Of a stretch of DNA of 30,902 nucleotides, positions 5,037-29,103 are shown one piece after another. The stretch spans positions 1 to 30,902 of IMG/VR virus record IMGVR_UViG_3300037041_001176, one strand, 5' to 3'. Made by a program: the position numbers and the translations under genes. The DNA is from a virus. The notes below the pieces were generated by a model. The model was given only the letters and a program-made list of their open reading frames with translations. It did not search any database and was not told the origin of the DNA. How positions within the stretch are numbered: the first letter of the stretch is position 1; each line of letters starts with the position of its first letter.

Positions 5037-5294
5037 ATGAAAAAAATCAATCTTGAAAAATATCTCTTAAAGAAAGAGCAATCTTCCGTAGAGGATAAGG
5101 ATCAATTGAAAATTATTGTTGAAAATAGTTTCTCTAAAATTTCCGAATTAGAGCAAAAGGTTCATAATTTACGTTATGAGATTGGCTTGTTAAATAAAAA
5201 GAATAATAACTTGAGCAAAGAAAATAAATTTTTAAAGAAAATTGCTGTTAAGCAAGGAAAAGATAAAATGCTACAATCGGGGGGTATTAAATGA
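5037..5294 (+). CDS. Coiled-coil protein (85 aa)
   Basis: This is an almost wholly charged helical protein with a clear heptad region (ISELEQKVHNLRYEIGLLNK, about 38-57, continuing to about 75). I start it at ATG 5037 (MKKINLEKYLL). An upstream in-frame start at 4959 would run through the terS remnant in another frame and is unlikely. There is no strong ribosome-binding site. It overlaps the next gene by 4 bases (ATGA). Function is unknown; it probably makes an oligomer. Confidence 0.55.
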   Translation: MKKINLEKYLLKKEQSSVEDKDQLKIIVENSFSKISELEQKVHNLRYEIGLLNKKNNNLSKENKFLKKIAVKQGKDKMLQSGGIK

Positions 5295-27505: not shown

Positions 27506-27611
27506 TAGCGTGATTAATTATAACTACTAAGGCTGCAAGAGTAGAAATTATCATAATAATTAAAGCACTGCATTTAGCTTCCAGTTCTTTTATCTTCTCT
27601 TTTTGTGTCAT
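27501..27611 (-). CDS. Membrane micropeptide (36 aa)
   Basis: The ATG at 27611 overlaps the TGA of the upstream leftward gene (ATGA), and the frame runs to TAA at 27501-27503. Residues 1-13 are charged (MTQKEKIKELEAK) and 14-33 form one clear membrane span (SALIIMIISTLAALVVIINH). The stop-start coupling and regular anchor structure argue that this is a real small gene, last in its operon. Function is unknown. Confidence 0.5.
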   Translation of the reverse strand: MTQKEKIKELEAKCSALIIMIISTLAALVVIINHAS

Positions 27612-28408
27612 TTTCTCTTAAGCTCCTCAATATCCTTTTGCATTTGCTCGAAGGAGTTGATGAAGTCGGCCAGAGAAGTAAACTTTGCTACACTTTCACC
27701 CGATGAAACAACGTTTCCTGCAGAAGCAAGAAATCTTCCATGAGCGGTCATCCCTAATGAATAACCGCCTCTTTTCCATTCTACAATTCCCTCATCCACT
27801 AAACCCTCCGGCAACTCACTAACATCTTTCCAAATACTTCTTGGATCGACACGTTCTTCTTTTATGTCGATTTTAGGCTCGGGTTTCGACATATACTCAG
27901 CGTCTAAAGCGTCAATCAAACTTTGTGCTTTTCGCAAAGTATAATAAACGCCATTTTGGCAAAAAGGTCGCACCTTAGAAAAGAATTTATCATCACAATC
28001 ATCGCAAGTGTCTCCTATTCTTTTCCCCGCCCATGTGTGATTACACTCAGGCTTTGATAAGAAAAAATCAGGGAAACCTTCAAACCAATCTTTTAATTCA
28101 GATTTCAATTCCTCCAAAGCCCTCTCAACTTCGTTGACTTCCTTCTTCTCAAGGTCAACTGGATTGGGGGTTTTGTTTACTTGCACTTCCTCTGGCTTCT
28201 GTGAGTTAGAGTCTGGGAGTTCTTCACAAATATTACAAAAAGATGCTAGAGGCAATGGTTCGTCCCAAACTCTATCGCTCTTCTCATGGTAAATTTTACA
28301 TGAGAAATCCTTTTCTACGCTAACAACCATCACTATTTCGCCGTTGCCTCTTCCAAATTGATTTCTGAGTTTATATCTCTTTCCCACTACTGGTATTTTA
28401 TTTGTCAT
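27608..28408 (-). CDS. Unknown protein with zinc-ribbon-like Cys cluster
   Basis: This 266-residue protein starts at ATG 28408, with AAGGAG 6 bases upstream; an earlier in-frame ATG at 28450 has no such site. The N-terminal 60 residues are a small beta domain (VVGKRYKLRNQFGRGNGEIV) ending with FCNIC. An acidic coiled coil (about 85-115) follows, then ECNHTWAGKRIGDTCDDCDD with a C-x-H and C-x-x-C arrangement that could bind zinc. The C-terminal part (PRSIWKDVSELPEG, LGMTAHGRFLASAG, ending with FEQMQKDIEELK) is unfamiliar. It lies in the early-type cluster; function is unknown. Confidence 0.7.
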   Translation of the reverse strand: MTNKIPVVGKRYKLRNQFGRGNGEIVMVVSVEKDFSCKIYHEKSDRVWDEPLPLASFCNICEELPDSNSQKPEEVQVNKTPNPVDLEKKEVNEVERALEELKSELKDWFEGFPDFFLSKPECNHTWAGKRIGDTCDDCDDKFFSKVRPFCQNGVYYTLRKAQSLIDALDAEYMSKPEPKIDIKEERVDPRSIWKDVSELPEGLVDEGIVEWKRGGYSLGMTAHGRFLASAGNVVSSGESVAKFTSLADFINSFEQMQKDIEELKRK

Positions 28409-28538
28409 GTGCTTCTCCTTGTTTGTTGAGTTTATCCATAGCTTCTTCACAAATTATAATAGCAGATTTAGCATCTCTTACCAATTCCGACTCCTCTCTA
28501 TCAGTTATAAAATTAATAGCATCCTTCGCAATCTCCAC
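28398..28538 (-). CDS. Possible small helical protein (46 aa, GTG start)
   Basis: A frame opening at GTG 28538 fills the space between two better-supported genes. It overlaps the preceding gene by 26 bases and the next ATG by 11 bases. The product is wholly helical and charged (EIAKDAINFITDREESELVR, then EEAMDKLNKQGEAHDK). The start signal is poor (purines GAAGAAG). An internal TTG further on has a better site (AGAGGAG) and would give a shorter peptide. Called on fit and composition. Confidence 0.35.
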   Translation of the reverse strand: MEIAKDAINFITDREESELVRDAKSAIIICEEAMDKLNKQGEAHDK

Positions 28539-28653
28539 CTTCTTCGGCCTCTTTCTTGTAAAATAACACCCTTAACTCTAAGCAACCAGAGTGTTGGCTT
28601 GGAATGTGCTTTTCCAATAGCAAGGCTAGTTCTTCGTAAAAGGTTTTGTCCAT
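28513..28653 (-). CDS. Small Cys-containing protein (46 aa)
   Basis: ATG at 28653 is preceded by a run of eight G, an extreme form of ribosome-binding tract, about 3 bases upstream. The 46-residue product (start MDKTFYEELALLLEKHIPSQ, end GGDCEGCY) has three Cys, two in a C-x-x-C at the C-terminus. A metal-bound or redox role is possible. It is the first gene after the intergenic repeat region 28654-28878. The function is not recognised. Confidence 0.5.
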   Translation of the reverse strand: MDKTFYEELALLLEKHIPSQHSGCLELRVLFYKKEAEEGGDCEGCY

Positions 28654-28690
28654 TACCCCCCCCTCATTTGTTAATTAACACCCTCTAAAA

Positions 28691-28876
28691 GCCCCGTGAG
28701 AAAAATAATATTCTTTAGTTAATAAAATGCCCACGGAGCCATTGGAGAATATTAACCCCACAAGCCCTGCAAATTTAGAATATTAAAATTATAAATTTAA
28801 CTTGTGGGGCCTTCCCTCATAGCCTACAAATCTCCCTTACGAATTTTTATCCCAAGCATAACGCTCAGAATATCAA
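28691..28876. repeat. Two tandem stem-loops and four AGAATATT boxes
   Basis: Stem 1: GCCCCGTG (28691-28698) pairs with CACGGAGC (28732-28739), one G-T wobble. Stem 2: CCCCACAAG (28756-28764) pairs exactly with CTTGTGGGG (28801-28809), with a nested AAATTTA (28771-28777) and TAAATTT (28792-28798). The box AGAATATTAA occurs at 28746-28755 and 28777-28786, inverted (9 of 10) at 28705-28714, and as AGAATATCAA at 28867-28876. The boxes fall inside and between the stems. The stretch 28654-28878 holds no gene. It could be a control region, a small RNA or a replication origin. Confidence 0.6.
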
Positions 28877-28878
28877 GG

Positions 28879-29037
28879 CTATAAGGTATTCTTTTTTGCT
28901 AACAGTTTCATCATTGACAGCCTAATAAAACTAGAAACTGACAACCCAGCTTTTTTTGATAAAACTAGTAATTTCTCATTCTGGTTTTCAGTTAGATAAA
29001 TGTTTCGTCTAACTCCTTTTTTTCTTTCTACTTTCAT
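28879..29037 (-). CDS. Ribbon-helix-helix DNA-binding protein
   Basis: Read from ATG 29037 this is a 52-residue protein with the Arc/MetJ/CopG layout: a beta strand RRNIYLT (about 10-16), helix 1 ENQNEKLLVLSKKAG (about 17-31), turn, and helix 2 SVSSFIRLSMMKLL (about 33-46), with an added basic N-terminus. It resembles MobC-like and CopG-like repressors. An upstream in-frame ATG at 29091 would place the tandem repeat 29055-29076 inside the gene and is less likely. The repeats just upstream are a good candidate operator for self-control. Confidence 0.75.
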   Translation of the reverse strand: MKVERKKGVRRNIYLTENQNEKLLVLSKKAGLSVSSFIRLSMMKLLAKKNTL

Positions 29038-29054: not shown

Positions 29055-29086
29055 TTAAACACACCTTAAACACACCTTTTATAATA
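29055..29086 (-). promoter_or_regulatory. Tandem 11-bp operator and -10 box before RHH gene
   Basis: TTAAACACACC occurs twice back to back (29055-29065 and 29066-29076; on the minus strand GGTGTGTTTAA). Immediately upstream of it on the minus strand is TATTAT (29086-29081), a possible -10. No good -35 is seen. RHH proteins usually bind short tandem repeats spaced one helical turn apart; an 11-base period fits. A bound dimer pair would cover the start of transcription, so this is probably the self-repression site. Confidence 0.6.
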
Positions 29087-29103
29087 TGCAATAGCCTAAA
29101 TTA

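Follow-up and report, generated by a model that had tools for sequence, protein, structure and literature searches.

In the early mRNA of phage T7, RNase III sites are located between the genes of a polycistronic transcript, and one of them, R1.1, matures and protects the T7 mRNA (PMC8708148). The put RNA of phage HK022 is ~70 nt long, consists of two stem-loops and lies close downstream of the early promoters (PMC9378689). GOLLD and ROOL are elaborate structured noncoding phage RNAs that are often found near tRNA genes (PMC12286853). Here, we analysed a hairpin element in the window, that is, in the whole 30.9-kb stretch of DNA under study, and compared it with these systems. Like the T7 sites, which are irregular intergenic hairpins that span about two helical turns, the element places a hairpin of at least ~20 bp between two genes of a phage early transcript; in contrast to them, three hairpins instead of one stand in a row, cutting is a prediction here, and no sequence relation is expected. 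With HK022 put it shares the adjacent stem-loops in a phage early operon, but with ~215 nt, three stem-loops and a position distal in the operon it falls outside the definition of put. Two related contigs (L005 and L006) carry a tRNA gene near their large structured RNA, as GOLLD and ROOL often do, whereas the window and the relatives searched gave no Rfam match apart from ordinary tRNAs and the element of the window is far shorter.

The window is a virus record that encodes a large terminase, a portal and a head-closure protein of the tailed-phage type, and it is a tailed-phage fragment. Its late genes run rightward, and the genes from ~27.5 kb to the right end run leftward. A first-pass annotation had described a gene-free stretch in this region. 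The gap at 28656-28878 is indeed gene-free, and no other gap between the minus-strand genes of the window's right end is as large. The gap separates two minus-strand genes. Upstream of the element lies an RHH protein gene (28879-29037) with an ATG start, in an ORF that opens at 29091 with TTG; its product weakly matches NikA-like/RHH_3 (Pfam) and repressor (PHROG) families, in each case below the curated cut-offs, and its predicted structure contains two confident helices (pLDDT 85). Downstream lies an ORF of 46 amino acids (28513-28653) with the ribosome-binding site GAGGGGGGGG. The sister phage G001 (42.3 kb) is probably circular because its ends share an overlap of ~135 bases that correspond to window sequence. 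In G001, the leftward operon extends further upstream to genes for SSB, RecT, a DnaB helicase and a DUF6291 protein, with the helicase and DUF6291 genes ~8-9 kb upstream of the element, which is situated near the distal end of the leftward early operon. The same end of the window encodes a 280-aa protein (27608-28450, minus strand) that forms a mosaic family with its relatives in contigs L002 to L013, in which short blocks such as SIWKDVSELP and LTDFINSFEQMQKDIEELKRK occur in differing orders and lengths between phages; a search for this family in bacterial genomes returned no match.

Folding of the minus-strand RNA of 28664-28890 yielded three tandem stem-loops at -76.8 kcal/mol, corresponding to a z-score of -6.7 (shuffled mean -49.5, sd 4.1, with none of 300 shuffles as low), whereas the plus strand of the same segment reached a z-score of only -2.3. 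Together, the stem-loops span 28674-28886 on the minus strand (~215 nt) and run from the RHH stop codon to just before the ribosome-binding site of the next ORF, the 46-aa ORF, the start codon of which is unpaired in the predicted fold. SL1 (28815-28886, z -4.4), delimited by fold and pair probabilities, is closed by an 11-bp stem (28876-28886 with 28815-28825), contains a 10-bp hairpin (28848-28872) together with a weak small hairpin, and overlaps the RHH stop codon with its 5' arm. SL2 (28757-28809, z -4.5) consists of a 9-bp stem (CCCACAAGT/GCTTGTGGG) with a flanking C-G pair, an asymmetric internal loop and an AT-rich upper stem of 8 bp. SL3 (28674-28756, z -5.3), the best conserved part of the element, is a long irregular hairpin with an AT-rich loop, in which helix segments of 12, 2 and 11 bp are separated by single mismatches. 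Both stems reported in the first-pass annotation were recovered, namely the perfect 9-bp stem (CCCCACAAG/CTTGTGGGG, 28756-28764 and 28801-28809) and the 8-bp stem (GCCCCGTG..., 28690-28740). Through G.U pairs, which have no paired counterpart on the plus strand, the latter reaches a length of more than 20 bp, and SL1 falls outside both stems; the structure is larger than described and strand-specific.

The model structure comprises 78 pairs, 14 of which are G.U, and we saw one C.A opposition within the helices, a single mismatch in SL3. In a DNA dyad, a bias towards G.U rather than C.A on one of the strands would not be expected. Because the helices are rich in G.U and poor in C.A on one strand, selection appears to act on the coding-strand RNA, and the pattern is the mark of an RNA and not of a DNA dyad. 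Promoter and terminator scans of the element returned nothing above chance. We regard it as highly probable that the hairpin block is an RNA-level element.

In the sister contigs L002 and L003, which are identical to each other across the element, six positions in the structured part differ from the window. Two of the changes affect stem pairs and both preserve pairing (A-U to G-U, in SL2, and G-U to A-U), the others are located in loops or junctions, and SL1 is conserved there as well. The element is ~97% identical to that of the sisters, compared with 93% for the RHH gene and 90% for a 120-aa gene; because the 5' part of the 46-aa ORF is also identical in L002, a recent exchange of the tract is possible. 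A covariance model (R1), built from two sequences only (the window and L002), matched contig L013 of phage G009 with 32 bits (E 3.4e-8 in 202 kb), the only R1-matching record besides the sister contigs among 13 whole records. G009 is distant, as SSB alone is recognisable (32%) among the early proteins compared. In L013, the homologue is preceded by a series of genes for SSB, RusA and a small protein and occupies the gap that separates this series from the next gene. An 87-aa protein upstream in L013 looked RHH-like by eye, for which Pfam, BLAST and a low-confidence fold gave no support.

SL3 retains 21 of 21 pairs in L013; nine of these vary, with changes on both sides in three, and when the pairing was shifted by 1-3 columns the proportion of paired cells fell from 100% to 46-61%. 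SL1 was not found in L013. In the covariation shuffle control, 33 of 500 shuffles reached the observed level, for three sequences the alignment of which followed the structure-aware match. Because only three lineages carry the element, the covariation is modest and the control suggestive. What is conserved is an RNA structure on the coding strand, with one hairpin kept by matching changes in a distant phage. A small RNA had been offered in the first-pass annotation as an alternative, and this alternative agrees closely with the evidence, at least in the sense of a structured RNA element.

Searches with Rfam 15, which includes GOLLD and ROOL, gave nothing at or above the gathering threshold for the window or the element, and in the relatives searched only the two ordinary tRNAs of L005 and L006 exceeded the gathering score, with loose thresholds giving chance matches. 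Comparison of the element DNA with phage and plasmid collections returned short AT-rich chance matches only, and the RusA, 120-aa and RHH proteins used as search baits retrieved nothing or the same sister contigs only. Two candidates were set aside as chance: a match of a structure-shaped pattern scan in the extra contig L034, which lies inside a GC-rich tail gene where R1 finds nothing, and a match of model R2 at 5048-5118 of the window, in a coding region. The element is a real, uncatalogued RNA element.

The stems had originally been noticed together with four AGAATATT boxes, three of which are exact. These are located at 28707-28714 (minus strand, in the SL3 loop, reading AATATTCT on the plus strand), at 28746-28753 (plus strand, in the 5' outer arm of the minus-strand SL3) and at 28777-28784 (plus strand, in the SL2 loop region); the two direct copies are 31 bases apart, as described. 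The fourth, at 28867-28874 on the plus strand within the inner hairpin of SL1, is the imperfect AGAATATC. Three exact copies were reached in none of 5000 shuffles of the stretch, and some 8-mer was present three times in 5% of the shuffles; because the word was chosen after the fact, the enrichment is borderline. Over the whole window, six copies of AGAATATT compare with 2.8 expected. In the close relatives, the stems are conserved and the boxes kept in part: the copy in the SL3 loop is retained in L002 and L003, and the copy in the SL2 loop region is lost in the sister phages by a change from AATATTCT to GCTATTCT. The homologue in L013 contains no AGAATATT box although its SL3 stem is kept. 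The boxes are AT-rich arm and loop sequence and are secondary, not the functional unit.

These observations bear on the idea of a DNA element, either an origin of replication, as the first-pass annotation had proposed, or an operator with an RHH or XRE protein binding to the AGAATATT boxes. The three exact boxes, never matched in number by the shuffles, the 31-base spacing of two of them and the DNA-binding genes nearby speak for such an element, but the structure is G.U-rich and strand-specific (z -6.7 versus -2.3), one box is lost in the sisters and none is present in the G009 homologue, so that we consider a DNA element very unlikely. In G001, the minimum of the cumulative GC skew falls at ~13.5 kb, at the divergence of the operons, and the element at 40.6-40.8 kb lies in the falling part of the skew, ~2 kb past the convergent junction; this test is weak because the skew here follows gene direction. 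With the skew minimum elsewhere and the boxes unconserved, nothing favours an origin. The operator reading of the boxes is weakened because they are lost while the stem is kept. A likely and, compared with the boxes, better candidate for the RHH operator, as read from the sequence, is the tandem repeat TTAAACACACC (two perfect 11-bp copies at 29055-29076, with a single base differing in the sister phage) just upstream of the RHH gene.

Related loci, which we found through the 280-aa mosaic gene, contain noncoding stretches, 0.4-1.1 kb long and strongly folded, that lie between early genes (L006 2610-3480, L007 110-690, L005 690-1780 and L004 4530-4930) and share blocks with 80-95% identity. 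A model (R3) built from L005, L006 and L013 describes a module with a T-arm-like hairpin and a closing stem with two-sided changes that is found in seven related phage contigs and recurs in L004, L007, L008 and L010. The module is located at L004 4662-4896, L005 769-923, L006 2976-3085, L007 473-652, L008 3437-3620, L010 4042-4159 and L276 5360-5481, the last being the same place as L013 2469-2590. Its 5' part is tRNA-Leu-like (TGTGGCGGAATAAGACGC). In a scan for TGTGGCGGAA..AGACGC, apparently ordinary tRNA-Leu genes dominated the matches, which revealed the similarity of the module to the 5' part of tRNA-Leu. The two stretches of the module that were tested gave no Rfam match at E 1. In G001, L017 8110-9614 (minus strand) is ~1.5 kb long and nearly gene-free on the operon strand, with a strongly folded middle (z -6.4); it opens with a stretch that resembles a tRNA but is not called by ARAGORN, and it holds a repeated CCCGAGCGG motif. 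Separately, we observed ORFs of short tandem repeats (GYGSG-like and EAGNGIEAGDGIKAG-like) in related phages, at L013 144-543 and L018 847-2581.

With regard to function, our preferred but tentative reading, to which we give a probability of roughly 0.4, is that the structured RNA in the leftward early transcript works in cis, between the genes, as a site of insulation and RNase III-type processing. We chose this reading because shape and position match RNase III sites in phage polycistronic mRNA, and the co-directional operon, the exact position between stop codon and ribosome-binding site and the result of the promoter and terminator scans favour it as well. Folding and conservation support three adjacent irregular hairpins in the space from the RHH stop codon to the following ribosome-binding site; by analogy with the T7 R sites, a host double-strand RNase of the RNase III type would cut in or beside the ~20-bp stems, the upstream mRNA would keep a protective 3' hairpin after the cut, and the downstream genes would gain a 5' end of their own. 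We know of no sequence signature of RNase III that could be used as a test. The missing SL1 in L013 counts against cis processing, as do the larger structured RNAs of the relatives, which seem more complex than a simple cut site would require.

Because the relatives carry these larger RNAs at or near the same position, the main rival is a trans-acting phage RNA, for which the hairpin block would be freed from the operon transcript to work independently, for instance as a decoy or a small regulator, and would be a short form of the larger RNAs. The folded noncoding stretches of the relatives, with z-scores of -6 to -8 in parts, argue for it, as do the SL3 homologue directly before the conserved tRNA-Leu-like module in G009 and the further 1.5-kb folded stretch in the same operon of G001. 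Yet the element lacks both a promoter and a terminator of its own, the shared tRNA-Leu-like module is absent from the window and G001, and no sequence beyond SL3 is shared, which leaves a trans-acting RNA somewhat unlikely. A wider proposal, which we regard as doubtful, would see in the element the minimal form of a modular phage RNA family between early genes of an uncultivated phage group, with hairpin blocks, tRNA-Leu-like and other folded modules recombined per phage and acting in trans, for example as decoys or scaffolds. The element could also be a transcription signal that sets polymerase read-on downstream, either as an attenuator or weak terminator formed by SL3 and the U4 after it, or through antitermination like that of HK022 put. 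Adjacent stem-loops in an early phage operon and the CUUUU kept in L013 after a GC-rich stem point in this direction, but in an intrinsic terminator the U run is unpaired and comes immediately after a GC-rich hairpin, and here the run is short and lies within the SL3 stem. SL3 is not listed by the terminator scan, which allows loops of 3-8 only, hairpins with longer loops being judged by eye, and the element is distal in the operon, unlike putL and putR just after the early promoter; we therefore think a transcription signal improbable.

The analysis replaces the guess of an origin with a testable RNA element, the pairing of which is conserved across distant phages. The element also draws attention to larger structured RNAs, likewise uncatalogued, in phages of this group. 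If the RNAs of the relatives were to constitute a single modular family, they would add a further class to the noncoding RNAs of phages, besides GOLLD and ROOL.
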